From Rhodospirillaceae bacterium (GTDB lineage: Bacteria > Pseudomonadota > Alphaproteobacteria > UBA6615), in the NCBI GenBank assembly GCA_018667335.1, contig JABIVD010000044.1:62001-126000 (forward strand): 64,000 nucleotides of DNA, given 5' to 3'. The notes under the pieces are model-generated. The model did no database searches. It saw only the letters and a program-made list of their open reading frames with translations, and was not told the origin of the DNA. Of this stretch, positions 23,760 to 29,840 are shown in pieces. Within the stretch, counting starts at the first letter, position 1; every line of letters begins with the position of its first letter. The position numbers and the translations under genes were made by a program.

Positions 23760-25463
23760 ATGTCGGACCTGGCCCAAATGGCTGAAGCGGGAAGTGCGCC
23801 CGAACCAGACGACAGCAAGCCGCTGTCGGACCTGGTCGGCCTGCTCGTGGCGTCCGGTGACCTCTTCTACGAATGGGATCTGGAAACCGATTCCATCGGC
23901 TGGACCGGACATTTGTCCGAGATTATCAGCATTTCTGACGTTGACGCTGTTGCGACCGGCGACCGCTTCCTCAACCGCATTCATCCCGAAGACCTGCCGC
24001 ACCGGATGATCGCGCTCTCCAACCATTTCGCGCACGGCGAATCCTTCGACCGCGAGTTTCGGCTGCGTGACGATTCCGGTCAATTCATCTGGATTCAGGA
24101 ACGCGCCGTCGTCACCAAGACTAGAAACGACAAACCACTCAGCCTGACCGGCGTGATTCGGTGCATCGAAGACCGGAAGCGCTCCGAAGAAGAAGCGACC
24201 TTCCTATCCAACCATGACGCCCTGACCGGACAGTATAACCGGTTGCGATTGCGCGAAGCGCTTGAGCATACAATCTCCCAGAGCCTGCACCGCAACCAAC
24301 GCGGCGGACTGCTTCTGGTCGGCCTCGACAAGCTGAACATCGTCTCGGACGTCTATGGCGAGGATACGGCAGATGCCATCGTGCTCGCGGCCGCACGTCG
24401 AATCGAAGACTGCATGCGCACCGGCGACGTCGTCGGACGGGTTGGGTTCGACAGGTTCGCCGTAATCGTCAATCGCTGCAGCCCCGAGGAGCTCTCGACC
24501 ATCGCCGGCCGTTTCCTGGCAACAATCCGCGAGACCCCCATCGCAACGCCGGCCGGGCCGATGACGATTACCGCATCGATCGGCGTCTCTCTGTTCCCCG
24601 ACGATGCGCCGACAGCGCGCGAAGTCGTGGCCAACGCCGACAATGCTCTACGCGGCGCACGGCGCCTCGGGTGTGACTGCTATCTCGAATATAGCGATTT
24701 GCCGGAGCACACGCGCACCGAACGGCCCGATCTTGTGGTCGCAGAGCAAGTGAAACAGGCGCTGAAAGATGAGCGCTTCACGCTCGCCTTTCAGCCGATC
24801 GTGTCCACCGTTACCGGCGAGGTCACATTCTACGAGGGCCTCGCCCGGATGCTGGACGACGATGGCAAACCGATCGCAGCCAGCGGGTTCGTGCCGGTGG
24901 TTGAACAGATGGGCTTGATGCGCCTGATCGACCGGAAGGTTCTCGGGCTCGGATTGGACGTGCTCGAACGCAATCCGGAGATGAAACTGTCGATCAACGT
25001 GTCGGGTATGACCGCGGTCGACCCGATGTGGCTGCGCCAACTCGAAGAGCGCCTGCAGGATCGCCGCGATCTCGCGTCACGACTGATACTCGAGATCACG
25101 GAAACCGTCGCACTCGACGATATTGATGATTCATCGCGCTTCGTGAATTCACTCAACAAGTTCGGCTGCCGGGTGGCGCTAGACGATTTCGGCGCCGGCT
25201 TCACATCCTTCCGTCACTTGCGTGCGCTCAATGTCGCCATGGTCAAGATCGACGGGTCCTTCGTCAGGGGCCTGACCCAGAACGACGAAAATCTTCTGTT
25301 CGTCCGCACCCTCGTCAATCTGGCAAAGGGGATCGGGCTGGAATCTGTCGCGGAATGGGTTGAAACCGAAGCGGAGGCCGAGCTGCTCAAGCGGGAAGGC
25401 GTCGACTATCTTCAGGGCTGGCATTGCGGACGGCCGGAGATCAATCCTGACTGGATGAAGTGA
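23760..25463 (+). CDS. PAS-GGDEF-EAL protein, degenerate GGDEF, probable c-di-GMP phosphodiesterase
   Basis: A 567-aa soluble signalling protein. PAS is at about 25-140 with the IHPEDLPHRM motif, GGDEF at about 150-310 and EAL at about 335-560. The cyclase signature is GFDRF (229-233) in place of GGDEF, so diguanylate cyclase activity is unlikely. The EAL domain has EGL (359-361) but keeps Asn413, Glu445, DDFGAG (Asp475, Asp476), Lys497, Glu532 and Gln552, so c-di-GMP hydrolysis is plausible. It has no membrane segment. The start has GGAGG upstream. It converges on phaR with a 39-bp gap. The PAS ligand is unknown. Confidence 0.88.
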   Translation: MSDLAQMAEAGSAPEPDDSKPLSDLVGLLVASGDLFYEWDLETDSIGWTGHLSEIISISDVDAVATGDRFLNRIHPEDLPHRMIALSNHFAHGESFDREFRLRDDSGQFIWIQERAVVTKTRNDKPLSLTGVIRCIEDRKRSEEEATFLSNHDALTGQYNRLRLREALEHTISQSLHRNQRGGLLLVGLDKLNIVSDVYGEDTADAIVLAAARRIEDCMRTGDVVGRVGFDRFAVIVNRCSPEELSTIAGRFLATIRETPIATPAGPMTITASIGVSLFPDDAPTAREVVANADNALRGARRLGCDCYLEYSDLPEHTRTERPDLVVAEQVKQALKDERFTLAFQPIVSTVTGEVTFYEGLARMLDDDGKPIAASGFVPVVEQMGLMRLIDRKVLGLGLDVLERNPEMKLSINVSGMTAVDPMWLRQLEERLQDRRDLASRLILEITETVALDDIDDSSRFVNSLNKFGCRVALDDFGAGFTSFRHLRALNVAMVKIDGSFVRGLTQNDENLLFVRTLVNLAKGIGLESVAEWVETEAEAELLKREGVDYLQGWHCGRPEINPDWMK

Positions 25464-25502: not shown

Positions 25503-26093
25503 TCAGCGCGCCAATTCGTCGAGCTGCCGACGCAAGTTCTCGATTTGCGTCTTCAGATCATCGAGCTTCGTCTCGTCGTCACTCGATGCGGCGCCACCGG
25601 CATCGCCATCCCGCGGACCCTCACCATTCGTCCCACCGAAGGGTGTGAACGCCTGGAAGGCGCGCTCGAAGACCGCCATGTTCTGGCGGCCAAGCTCTTC
25701 CCATTGCGCGAACGGATTCATGGTCTGGCCGACCGTGCCCTGCATATATTCACGCATCCGACCCTGATTGTTCGAAAACGCATCCATCGACGCTTCCAAA
25801 TAGTTCGGCACCATCGTCTGTAGGCTGTCGCCATAGAACTGGATGAGCTGACGCAGAAAACTGATCGGCAGCAAATTCTGCCCCTTGCTCTCTTCTTCGA
25901 AGATGATCTGGGTCAGGACCGAGCGCGTGATGTTGTCGCCCGATTTGGCATCAATCACCTGAAATTCCGATCCCGCCTTTACCATCTGGGACAAATCATC
26001 GAGCGTCACATACTTGCTCGTCGACGTGTTGTAGAGCCGACGATTGGCATACTTCTTGATGATTATCGGGTCTGTTTTGTCTGTATCGGCCAT
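25503..26093 (-). CDS. phaR: Polyhydroxyalkanoate synthesis repressor PhaR
   Basis: A 196-aa protein. The N-terminal IIIKKYANRRLYNTSTSKYVTLDDL (10-34) is the DNA- and PHB-binding PHB_acc_N domain. It is followed by the PHB accumulation regulatory region with LLPISFLRQLIQFYGD and a C-terminal coiled-coil tail (LDDLKTQIENLRRQLDEL). PhaR binds nascent PHB granules and is released from phasin and its own promoters. The start is the ATG at 26093. It diverges from a PhaE-like small gene and the PHA genes, so the 140-bp gap probably carries its operator. Confidence 0.93.
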   Translation of the reverse strand: MADTDKTDPIIIKKYANRRLYNTSTSKYVTLDDLSQMVKAGSEFQVIDAKSGDNITRSVLTQIIFEEESKGQNLLPISFLRQLIQFYGDSLQTMVPNYLEASMDAFSNNQGRMREYMQGTVGQTMNPFAQWEELGRQNMAVFERAFQAFTPFGGTNGEGPRDGDAGGAASSDDETKLDDLKTQIENLRRQLDELAR

Positions 26094-26233: not shown

Positions 26234-26668
26234 ATGACCGAACAGCCGGATTTCGCAGCCCTCGCGCGGCAATATCTCGATCTTTGGGAAGATCAGCTCT
26301 CGGCAATGGCGGCCGATCCTGATCTGGCCGAACAGACCGCACGTTTCTTCGACACGATGACGCAACTGGGCGCAATCTCGCACCCCATGGGCGCCTCCGG
26401 ACTGGCAGCCCTCATGGCCCAGATGTCCGGCCATGCGAGCGCAACGACGGACGGATCCGATGGACCCAAAGACCAACCCACCTCCGCGGCTGGGGCCGCG
26501 TCCGCTGCCGCTGCACCTGATGACCGCGATCAACGGCTGGACGAGCTCACGCGGCGCCTTGCCGATGTTGAGGAACGACTCCATCGACTGGAATCCGGAG
26601 ATCGCGGCGCGCGCCGCGCAACTGCAAAAAAGCCTGCCGGCGGAACCACCGGCCGAAAACGAAGCTGA
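26234..26668 (+). CDS. Small PHA-locus protein, PhaE/phasin-like, coiled coil
   Basis: A 144-aa protein. Residues 1-60 contain LARQYLDLWEDQLSAMAADPD, an amphipathic helix pattern like the start of PhaE-type and phasin-like proteins. It continues with an Ala/Pro linker, a coiled-coil segment (RLDELTRRLADVEERLHRLE, about 99-118) and a Lys/Arg/Gly-rich tail. It is probably a PHA-granule or synthase-associated protein, an inference from position between phaR and the PhaC-like gene. Its last 209 bp overlap the PhaC-like gene in a different frame, and both reading frames look real in the overlap. Confidence 0.65.
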   Translation: MTEQPDFAALARQYLDLWEDQLSAMAADPDLAEQTARFFDTMTQLGAISHPMGASGLAALMAQMSGHASATTDGSDGPKDQPTSAAGAASAAAAPDDRDQRLDELTRRLADVEERLHRLESGDRGARRATAKKPAGGTTGRKRS

Positions 26669-27707
26669 CCCGTTCACCAACGCTGTCGAGACCGAAATTG
26701 CCGCACGGCTGACGGCATTCTCGGCCGGCGTGAATGCCTATCGCCACCACCCCTATCATCGCCAGCTGCCCGACCCGCCGACGTTGTGGGAGTCGGGTGC
26801 GACCCGCCTGCTCGACTACGGGCCGGCTGACGGCCGCCCGATCCTGTTCGTCCCCTCCCTGATCAACCGGGCCTACATCCTCGATCTGTCCGAACGGCGT
26901 AGCCTCATGCGCTGGCTCGCGGCCGAGACCGGGCTTCGCCCGCTGCTCGTGGATTGGGGGCTGCCCGGACCCGCGGAGCGTAATTTCACGCTTACCGACT
27001 ACATCACCGGACCACTCTCAGGCGCGCTCGATCAGGCCAACACAGCTGCGGGTGGGCCGGTGCCGGTGGTCGGCTACTGCATGGGTGGGTTGCTGTCTCT
27101 CGCCCTCGCGGCGATCCGGCCCGCCGATGTCGCAGCGTTGGCATTGCTCGCCACCCCATGGAACTTCCATGCCGAGCGCGTCGCCCAGGCCGAAGCGCTT
27201 GCCCGGACCGTCGAGGCGTCCACCCCTCTTCTGGAGGCGTATGGCGAGTTGCCGGTGGACATCATCCAGTCGATGTTCTCGGCGCTCGACCCGTTCCTGG
27301 TCACCCGCAAGTTCATCCGCTTCGCGACGGCGCAAACCGACAGCCCGGCCGCAGAGGCGTTTGTTGCGCTGGAAGATTGGCTGAATGACGGGGTCCCCCT
27401 GTCCGGGCCGGTTGCGCGCGAATGCATGGGCGGCTGGTACGGCCGCAACGCGCCTCACCTGGGGCAATGGGTGGTCGACGGCACGGCCGTCCGGCCCGAG
27501 GCGATCAATATCCCGGCGCGGGTGCTGATCCCTCAACAGGACCGAATCGTCCCGCCCGCATCGGCCCAGGCTTTGGCGGACGCGCTGCCGAACGCCGAAG
27601 CGAGCAGCACGCCGCTCGGTCATATCGGGATGGTCGCAGGCTCGCGCGCCCAGGCGCTTGTCTGGGAGCCGCTCGCCGAATGGCTGTCGGGGGTCTCCCC
27701 CCGTTAG
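26460..27707 (+). CDS. PhaC-like alpha/beta hydrolase (Cys nucleophile)
   Basis: A 415-aa protein with the PHA-synthase form of the lipase box: Cys207 in VVGYCMGGLL, a proposed Asp in IPQQDRIVPP and His in GHIGMVAG. At 415 residues it is shorter than class I PhaC (about 570-600) and lacks much of the N-terminal region, so it may be a class-III-like partner subunit, a short PHA synthase or a related acyltransferase. I chose the ATG at 26460 because the following PRLGPRPLPLHL segment matches the N-terminus I recall for this family. The next in-frame ATGs lie at 26520 and 26565, still inside the overlap. It precedes phaA and phaB. Confidence 0.8.
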   Translation: MDPKTNPPPRLGPRPLPLHLMTAINGWTSSRGALPMLRNDSIDWNPEIAARAAQLQKSLPAEPPAENEADPFTNAVETEIAARLTAFSAGVNAYRHHPYHRQLPDPPTLWESGATRLLDYGPADGRPILFVPSLINRAYILDLSERRSLMRWLAAETGLRPLLVDWGLPGPAERNFTLTDYITGPLSGALDQANTAAGGPVPVVGYCMGGLLSLALAAIRPADVAALALLATPWNFHAERVAQAEALARTVEASTPLLEAYGELPVDIIQSMFSALDPFLVTRKFIRFATAQTDSPAAEAFVALEDWLNDGVPLSGPVARECMGGWYGRNAPHLGQWVVDGTAVRPEAINIPARVLIPQQDRIVPPASAQALADALPNAEASSTPLGHIGMVAGSRAQALVWEPLAEWLSGVSPR

Positions 27708-27847: not shown

Positions 27848-29023
27848 ATGTCGGACGTCGTGATTGCCGGTGCAGCCCGGACCCCTGTCGGAGCCTTCAA
27901 CGGCGCCCTCGCCAGCCTGAGCGCTGCAGAACTGGGCACCGTCGCGATCTCAAACGCGCTCGAGCGGGCCGGAGTCCCGGCCGCAGATGTCGACGAAGTG
28001 GTCATGGGTCAGGTCCTGACAGCCGCGACCGGCATGAACCCCGCCCGCCAGGCGCTGCTCGCCGCGGGCATTCCGGACGATCGCACGGCGTATCTGATCA
28101 ACCAGGTCTGCGGCTCGGGCCTGCGTGCCGTCGCCCAGGGCTTTCAGGCGATCAAGCTCGGTGAAGCCGATGTTATCGTCGCCGGCGGCCAGGAAAGCAT
28201 GAGCCAATCGCCTCATGCGTCGCAGATGCGCAACGGCACCAAGATGGGCGACGTCAAGCTCGTCGACACGATGATCAACGACGGCCTGTGGTGTTCGCTG
28301 ATGGGCTACCACATGGGCACCACGGCCGAGAACGTCGCGGAGAAATGGCAGATCACGCGGGACGAACAGGACGCGTTTGCGGCCGGCTCCCAGCAAAAGG
28401 CAGAGGCGGCCCAGAATGACGGGCGCTTCGCCGACGAAATCGCGGCCGTGACGATCACGACACGCAAGGGCGAGACCGTCGTCGACGCGGATGAGTATCC
28501 CCGCCACGGCACCACGACCGAGACCCTCGGCAAGCTCCGCCCCGCCTTCTCCAAGGAAGGTACTGTCACGGCAGGCAACGCCTCGGGAATCAACGACGGC
28601 GGTGCGGCGACGGTCCTGATGAGTTCCGACGAAGCTGCCAAGCGCGGCATCACCCCGCTGGCGCGGATCGCCTCCTGGGCGACCGCCGGCGTCGACCCGG
28701 CCGTGATGGGCTCGGGCCCGATCCCGGCCAGCCGCAAAGCGCTGGAACGCGCGGGCTGGAGCGTCGGCGATGTCGAACTGGTCGAGGCCAACGAGGCCTT
28801 CGCCGCCCAGGCGATCGCGGTCAACCGCGACATGGGCTGGGACCCGGAGATCGTCAACGTCAATGGCGGCGCCATCGCGATCGGACATCCGATCGGTGCC
28901 TCGGGTGCCCGGGTGCTGGTGACGCTGCTGCACGAAATGCAGAAACGCGATGCCAAGAAGGGCCTCACGACCCTGTGCATCGGCGGCGGCATGGGCATCG
29001 CGCTCTGCGTCGAGCGGGACTAG
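27848..29023 (+). CDS. phaA: Acetyl-CoA acetyltransferase (PHB-type thiolase)
   Basis: A 391-aa thiolase. The acyl-enzyme Cys88 is in INQVCGSGL, the His is in NVNGGAIAIGHPIGASGAR, and the C-terminal Cys is in LCIGGGMGIALCVE, the three thiolase signatures. It condenses two acetyl-CoA to acetoacetyl-CoA, the first PHB step. The start is the ATG at 27848 with AGGAGAGATAG upstream. The frame's 18 upstream codons are not family-like. It is followed 94 bp later by phaB. A GTGC-N5-GCAC palindrome at 27794-27806 in its leader is a weak operator candidate. Confidence 0.95.
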   Translation: MSDVVIAGAARTPVGAFNGALASLSAAELGTVAISNALERAGVPAADVDEVVMGQVLTAATGMNPARQALLAAGIPDDRTAYLINQVCGSGLRAVAQGFQAIKLGEADVIVAGGQESMSQSPHASQMRNGTKMGDVKLVDTMINDGLWCSLMGYHMGTTAENVAEKWQITRDEQDAFAAGSQQKAEAAQNDGRFADEIAAVTITTRKGETVVDADEYPRHGTTTETLGKLRPAFSKEGTVTAGNASGINDGGAATVLMSSDEAAKRGITPLARIASWATAGVDPAVMGSGPIPASRKALERAGWSVGDVELVEANEAFAAQAIAVNRDMGWDPEIVNVNGGAIAIGHPIGASGARVLVTLLHEMQKRDAKKGLTTLCIGGGMGIALCVERD

Positions 29024-29117: not shown

Positions 29118-29840
29118 ATGGGCCGAGTAGCACTGGTTACCGGCGGCACCCGAGGAATCGGTGCCGCGATCGCGATCGCATTGAAGAATGCTGGCCGTGA
29201 CGTCGTCGTCAATTACGCGGGCAACGATCATGCGGCGCGCGAGTTCGAGGAATCGACCAGCATCAAGGTGATGAAGTTCGATGTCTCCGACCATGAGGCG
29301 GTCGCCGCTGCCACCGCACAGATCGAGACAGATCTCGGGCCGATCGAAATCCTGGTCAACAACGCCGGCATCACGCGTGACAGCACGATGCATCGCATGA
29401 CCTACGAGCAGTGGAAGGAAGTGATCGACACCAACCTGTCGGGCGTCTTCAACTGTTCACGCGCGGTCATCGAGGGCATGCGCGAGCGCAGCTTCGGCCG
29501 GATCGTCAACATCGGCTCGATCAACGGCCAGGCCGGCCAGTATGGCCAGGTCAACTACGCCGCAACCAAATCGGGCATCCATGGCTTCACCAAGGCTCTG
29601 GCCCAGGAAGGCGCGGGCAAGAACATCACGGTCAACGCCATCGCACCGGGCTATGTGGACACCGACATGGTGCGCGCCGTGCCGCCGGAGGTGCTTGAGA
29701 AGATCATCGCCGGCATCCCCGTCGGGCGGCTGGGCAAGGCCGACGATATCGCGCGCGGCGTGATTTTCCTGACTGCAGACAATGCGGACTTCGTCACCGG
29801 GTCGACCCTGTCGATCAATGGTGGCCAGCACATGTACTAG
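29118..29840 (+). CDS. phaB: Acetoacetyl-CoA reductase
   Basis: A 240-aa short-chain dehydrogenase with GGTRGIG (9-15) for NADPH binding, VNNAGITRD, and the catalytic Ser134, Tyr147 and Lys151 in IGSINGQAGQYGQVNYAATK. The GQYGQ-NYAATK arrangement is typical of PhaB. It reduces acetoacetyl-CoA to (R)-3-hydroxybutyryl-CoA for PHB. A GGGAG ribosome site precedes the ATG. Only the short PhaC-like protein is present as a polymerase candidate in this window. Confidence 0.94.
   Translation: MGRVALVTGGTRGIGAAIAIALKNAGRDVVVNYAGNDHAAREFEESTSIKVMKFDVSDHEAVAAATAQIETDLGPIEILVNNAGITRDSTMHRMTYEQWKEVIDTNLSGVFNCSRAVIEGMRERSFGRIVNIGSINGQAGQYGQVNYAATKSGIHGFTKALAQEGAGKNITVNAIAPGYVDTDMVRAVPPEVLEKIIAGIPVGRLGKADDIARGVIFLTADNADFVTGSTLSINGGQHMY

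Follow-up and report, generated by a model that had tools for sequence, protein, structure and literature searches.

Two genes of a PHA operon, here called E and C, are in all probability both real protein-coding genes that share some 110-290 nt of the same strand in different reading frames, in an arrangement that comparison of homologous loci indicates to be old in Alphaproteobacteria. In the window, by which we mean the whole 64,000-nucleotide stretch of a Rhodospirillaceae bacterium that was analysed, the shared segment is 209 bp long, and C lies in the +1 frame of E (offset 226, that is 1 mod 3). The gene order is that of a PHA operon, with phaR divergent and then E, C, phaA and phaB, so that E directly adjoins the phaC-type gene. 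The features are as follows, with coordinates in the window; the start of phaR was placed at the family-typical ATG.

25503..26093, minus strand: phaR repressor gene, reading away from E and C (158 bits to TIGR01848; cut-off 109).
26234..26668, plus strand: gene E, starting with ATG, 144 aa; N-terminal helical hairpin, disordered linker, coiled coil and basic tail.
26252..26377, plus strand: E-only region encoding the N-terminal helical hairpin predicted by AlphaFold, residues 7-48.
26449..26455, plus strand: Shine-Dalgarno-like GGACGGA, 5' of the C start (predicted anti-SD pairing -5.7 kcal/mol).
26460..27707, plus strand: gene C, starting with ATG, 415 aa; PHA-synthase-like alpha/beta hydrolase with invariant C207, D361 and H388.
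26460..26668, plus strand: putative dual-coding overlap, 209 bp including the E stop, supported by codon randomisation in both directions, reduced synonymous change and natural losses.
26493..26519, plus strand: GPRPLPLHL codons, C residues 12-20, over the end of the disordered linker of E; conserved in the C frame and kept without E.
26519..26593, plus strand: E coiled-coil codons, residues 96-120, from AlphaFold models, with E-frame heptad residues above the null.
27848..29023, plus strand: phaA-type acetyl-CoA acetyltransferase gene, 3' of C.
29118..29840, plus strand: phaB-type acetoacetyl-CoA reductase gene (340 bits to TIGR01829; cut-off 302).

The conservation of the arrangement was followed in 220 C-family loci from Alphaproteobacteria, some of them mutual duplicates, drawn from relatives, a class-wide genome sample, further extracted regions and 80 named records that include Azospirillum, Paramagnetospirillum, Pelagibius, Thalassospira, Nitrospirillum and Inquilinus. 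The C query found matches in 42 of 60 relatives, some of these being only a distant class I-sized paralogue, and the C profile matched 176 of the 385 genomes sampled across the class (E-value <= 1e-30). E, whose N-terminus follows the pattern L-A-R-x-Y-L-D-L-W-x-x-Q, was detected by its HMM in 210 of the 220 loci. In 203 of these the overlap with C has the same relative frame, and E runs past the start of the conserved N-terminal motif of C, extending mostly 110-245 nt beyond it. Both open reading frames and their relative frame are kept in divergent relatives, and the same-strand, out-of-frame overlap that a sequence-only reading of this DNA had pointed out is a real one. The N-terminus which that reading had taken to be typical of the C family is indeed so, since (R-x)GPRPLPLHL is retained in nearly all homologues. 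About 8% of the loci that retain C lack E or have it truncated, so E is not indispensable everywhere. When a C tree, several deep nodes of which are weakly supported, is rooted with class III PhaC, parsimony places the overlap as the ancestral state with 13 changes; the comparative analysis shows in this sense an apparently old arrangement.

A single open alternative frame of such length is unremarkable in GC-rich DNA. The E frame stays open in approximately 52% of synonymous shuffles of C, and an alternative frame is open in 1096 of 1959 downstream control windows. Since openness alone says little, we tested conservation instead, and this exceeds chance. Codon nulls were computed from 150 loci below 85% identity, scoring BLOSUM similarity over an ungapped 33-codon block of the overlap in pairs less than 50% identical in C. 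When the synonymous codons of C were randomised, the expected E-frame similarity was 0.01 and the expected number of E-frame stops 45, against observed values of 1.24 (Z 47) and 0. When the E protein was kept and its codons randomised, a C-frame similarity of 0.31 and 54 C-frame stops were expected, and 2.09 (Z 61) and 0 were observed. In other blocks of C the E-frame similarity departs from its null by at most 0.40, a small excess that probably arises because the nulls take the sequences as independent and ignore the shared ancestry of synonymous sites. The suggestion that both products are meaningful within the overlap is thereby borne out, the dual-frame constraint lying far above the codon-shuffled nulls.

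A comparison of synonymous rates, proposed as a check by the sequence-only reading, gives suppression within the overlap for both genes. Within close groups, synonymous codon change in C is 0.28-0.37 in the overlap versus 0.44-0.58 downstream, and in E it is 0.15-0.20 in the overlap versus 0.37-0.46 outside. Upstream of the overlap the third codon positions of E are about four times more variable than the second, a coding signature. The comparative analysis shows purifying selection on both frames within the overlap, with the constraint partly divided between them. The first 16 codons of the block carry mainly the C motif over an alanine-rich linker of E, and the next 16 mainly the E heptad residues L, R, L/I/V, L, E, R and L/I/V over a helix of C. 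The constraint in the E frame tracks amino-acid classes, with L, I and V interchanging and the R, E and R positions nearly invariant. In the window the predicted coiled-coil codons of E cover C residues 21-45, including most of the N-terminal helix of C (residues 16-38).

The losses of E, of which about 13 are inferred, serve as natural controls. Twelve loci with a readable motif in which E is lost or truncated retain the PRP motif of C. Matches at the seven coil sites fall in the lost or truncated loci to 0-3 of 7; synonymous shuffles give 3.16, and loci that bear the overlap 6.58 of 7. The exception is locus L110, with 7 of 7 coil sites and a single in-frame stop just before the coil, which represents either a very recent loss of E or an error in the sequence of that metagenome-assembled genome. 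In four loci (L020, L177, L192 and L198) E is truncated before the coiled coil while its N-terminal helical part is kept, which suggests that function may be possible without the coil.

The comparative analysis also shows that within E there is a conserved start belonging to C, preceded by a ribosome-binding-like site. Of 143 loci, 110 have a C-frame ATG no more than 75 nt upstream of the motif, whereas the other two frames have one in 3 and 24, and an in-frame ATG, GTG or TTG upstream of the motif is found in 142 of the 143. The predicted anti-SD energy of C starts has a median of -5.65, versus -3.05 for control codons; by these bioinformatic measures of ATG and SD enrichment the downstream gene has an initiation site of its own. 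In the window the ATG at 26460 scores -5.7 kcal/mol, the E start at 26234 -2.0, and a second in-frame ATG for C at 26433, which would give a protein of 424 aa, -1.5; we prefer 26460 over 26433 for its stronger SD. E starts across loci have weak predicted SDs (median -2.4), which, next to those of C, may mean that initiation of E is leaderless or weak. C would, according to this evidence, be translated by independent internal initiation. The E stop lies 206 nt downstream of the C start, which makes classical stop-start reinitiation unlikely. Ribosomes on E must cross the C start site, so that any coupling would act through ribosome traffic or unfolding.

Four other explanations of the overlap have to be weighed against these results. 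Long same-strand overlaps are often start errors, and class III PhaC models align to C only from residue 110 onward, both of which would fit a C that truly begins downstream of the overlap and owes its early start to over-extended annotation. C homologues do not begin downstream of 26668, however, and GPRPLPLHL is nearly invariant without being implied by E: over the first 16 codons of the block the C-frame similarity is 2.90, where 0.29 is expected from E. The motif is also kept in loci without E, the ATG and SD upstream of it are conserved, and residues 11-30 of C are modelled by AlphaFold at pLDDT 86-92 (about 69 for the overlap-encoded N-terminus beyond them). We regard a downstream start as refuted at the level of sequence, with hardly any probability left to it, and the early start favoured by the sequence-only reading as correct. 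A real E whose 3' part just reads on, unselected, through an open frame in GC-rich DNA is also very improbable: about half of the synonymous shuffles of C would permit it, but the coiled-coil heptad residues are conserved far above the C-derived null, and they decay where E has been truncated or lost.

Production of C by programmed +1 frameshifting from E, as an E-C fusion, would account for the constancy of the relative frame in all overlapping loci. This is slightly less improbable, though still highly unlikely, given the near-universal start codon upstream of the motif, the position-specific ATG peak with SD enrichment, and the conservation of the E coil past the point at which C begins, which indicates that E is not just a leader. 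The reduced synonymous change could instead reflect an RNA element or regulatory site, and the C start region, which lies within the overlap, does need some nucleotide conservation. Here RNAalifold gives 2 pairs at -0.1 kcal/mol with no compensatory change, a search of Rfam returned no family above its gathering score, and the constraint follows amino-acid classes in the E frame; such an element as the whole explanation is barely credible. Two proteins encoded in overlapping frames remain by far the best reading of the data.

C is nearest to class III PhaC, judged by its sequence, though far below the family cut-off. It matches TIGR01836 at 1.8e-47 with 162 bits, where the cut-off is 365 and a Rhizobium class III PhaC scores 391. 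Residues 111-412 are homologous to a class III PhaC (HHalign 99.9%), and it is the N-terminus of about 110 residues that falls outside the TIGR01836 match. C207, D361 and H388, the Cys-Asp-His catalytic residues, are invariant in 22 C sequences, and the top matches among solved structures are the PhaC proteins of Aeromonas caviae, Chromobacterium and Cupriavidus. The same genome contains a 632-aa open frame with a second PhaC-like gene of class I size (G000:C47:4479-4811), and C may therefore be a second synthase.

E resembles PhaE in size and in its position beside phaC, and to that extent its description as PhaE-like by the sequence-only reading stands; the similarity to the PhaE family that the term implies was not detectable. 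The PhaE models TIGR01834 and PF09712 are not among the matches listed for 24 E proteins at E-value <= 1 (25 of 36 Pfam families listed), and comparison with one annotated Rhizobium PhaE gave an HHalign probability of 3.9%, so that a homology of E to PhaE is unsupported. Searches of solved structures with E returned no match. DUF7310, a Pfam coiled coil of unknown function, was weakly matched by 16 of the 24 E proteins (best E-value 0.0016), probably as a generic coiled coil. AlphaFold models E with N-terminal helices, a disordered linker and a helix at residues 96-120, at a mean pLDDT of 70; block means over the hairpin at residues 7-48 are mostly 82-96, the last being 67. The tail is basic, rich in lysine and arginine.

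According to the model that we favour for function, E would be an accessory subunit, small and helical, which forms oligomers by way of its coiled coil and helps the PHA synthase C in the role that PhaE has for class III PhaC. Ribosomes translating E would traverse the region where C starts and could adjust C synthesis or couple it to that of E, and the N-terminus of C may be an E-binding site. Taken together, these elements would make E and C a class-wide, undescribed two-subunit PHA synthase whose small subunit overlaps the N-terminus of the enzyme out of frame and is missed by some annotations, with the shared DNA tying together the evolution of the subunits and perhaps their synthesis, and with the E coil and the C helix possibly forming an interaction pair. 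We hold this larger proposal tentatively, at somewhat less than an even chance. The main competitor is that E is translated but is not a synthase subunit, being for example a phasin-like granule protein or a DNA- or nucleoid-binding protein that shares the operon. The lysine/arginine tail, the lack of PhaE similarity and the absence of E in some lineages that keep C all speak for it; the near-universal linkage of E to C in the sampled loci and the adjoining phaR, phaA and phaB speak against it. We consider it a serious contender, albeit rather less probable than not. The preservation of both frames suggests that the small gene probably encodes a real partner protein.

Class III synthases (TIGR01836/TIGR01834) likewise have a small helical protein encoded just upstream of PhaC, as in the phaE-phaC pair of Rhizobium johnstonii, where the genes lie 3 bp apart and do not overlap as E and C do. 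Thermus rnpA and rpmH are also two functional bacterial genes on the same strand and out of frame, with rpmH nested in rnpA and a single initiation region in which the start codons are one nucleotide apart (PMC9841429). E and C differ from these in having start codons at a distance of 226 nt and a private part each. Long out-of-frame coding in bacteria has also been reported for overlapping genes of Pseudomonas aeruginosa and of E. coli O157:H7 (PMC9927249, with the studies it cites). In E. coli the three genes run antisense, and weak expression and a possibly recent origin are ascribed to them (PMC9927249), whereas E and C are on the same strand, the pair is class-wide, and purifying selection is measurable in both frames. 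Fully established cases of long out-of-frame overlap are few in bacteria (PMC9927249), and annotation rules and common practice tend to exclude them (PMC8665328, PMC9927249). An overlap of the kind formed by E and C was not described in the open-access papers searched; subscription papers may differ. Its significance would lie in conservation over many families of one class with both frames under purifying selection.

In Rhodospirillum rubrum the order is phaR (Rru_A0276), phaC1 (Rru_A0275), phaA (A0274) and phaB (A0273) (PMC4026134), and the phaC1-phaA-phaB operon has the gene order of the window; phaR and phaC1 have no locus tag between them (PMC4026134, PMC4958253). The reverse complement of a phaC1 qPCR primer (PMC9999600) encodes VEDWLND, resembling ALEDWLNDG of the C family, and R. 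rubrum phaC1 is likely a member of that family. The primer probe, at up to 2 mismatches, gave 4 matches in the 385 genomes, all with 2 mismatches and none at C loci, and no match in a smaller order-level genome set. On plasmid p3 of Azospirillum brasilense Sp7 the annotation places an 'alpha/beta fold hydrolase' between phaR and acetyl-CoA acetyltransferase. The E of that locus (L221:2604-3131) overlaps the annotated hydrolase by 230 bp and does not appear in the gene table of PLSDB, such tables being incomplete; this is suggestive of the small gene having been left out by at least one standard annotation. The missing entry in A. brasilense Sp7, together with the lack of a tag at this position in R. 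rubrum, suggests that work confined to the PhaC of this operon may have missed a subunit, which would matter both for the engineering of PHA bioplastics and for annotation rules that exclude overlaps. E is likewise unlisted in a further locus, L222. Upstream of phaR, at 23760-25463 of the window, lies a long open reading frame that by eye resembles a PAS-GGDEF-EAL signalling protein.
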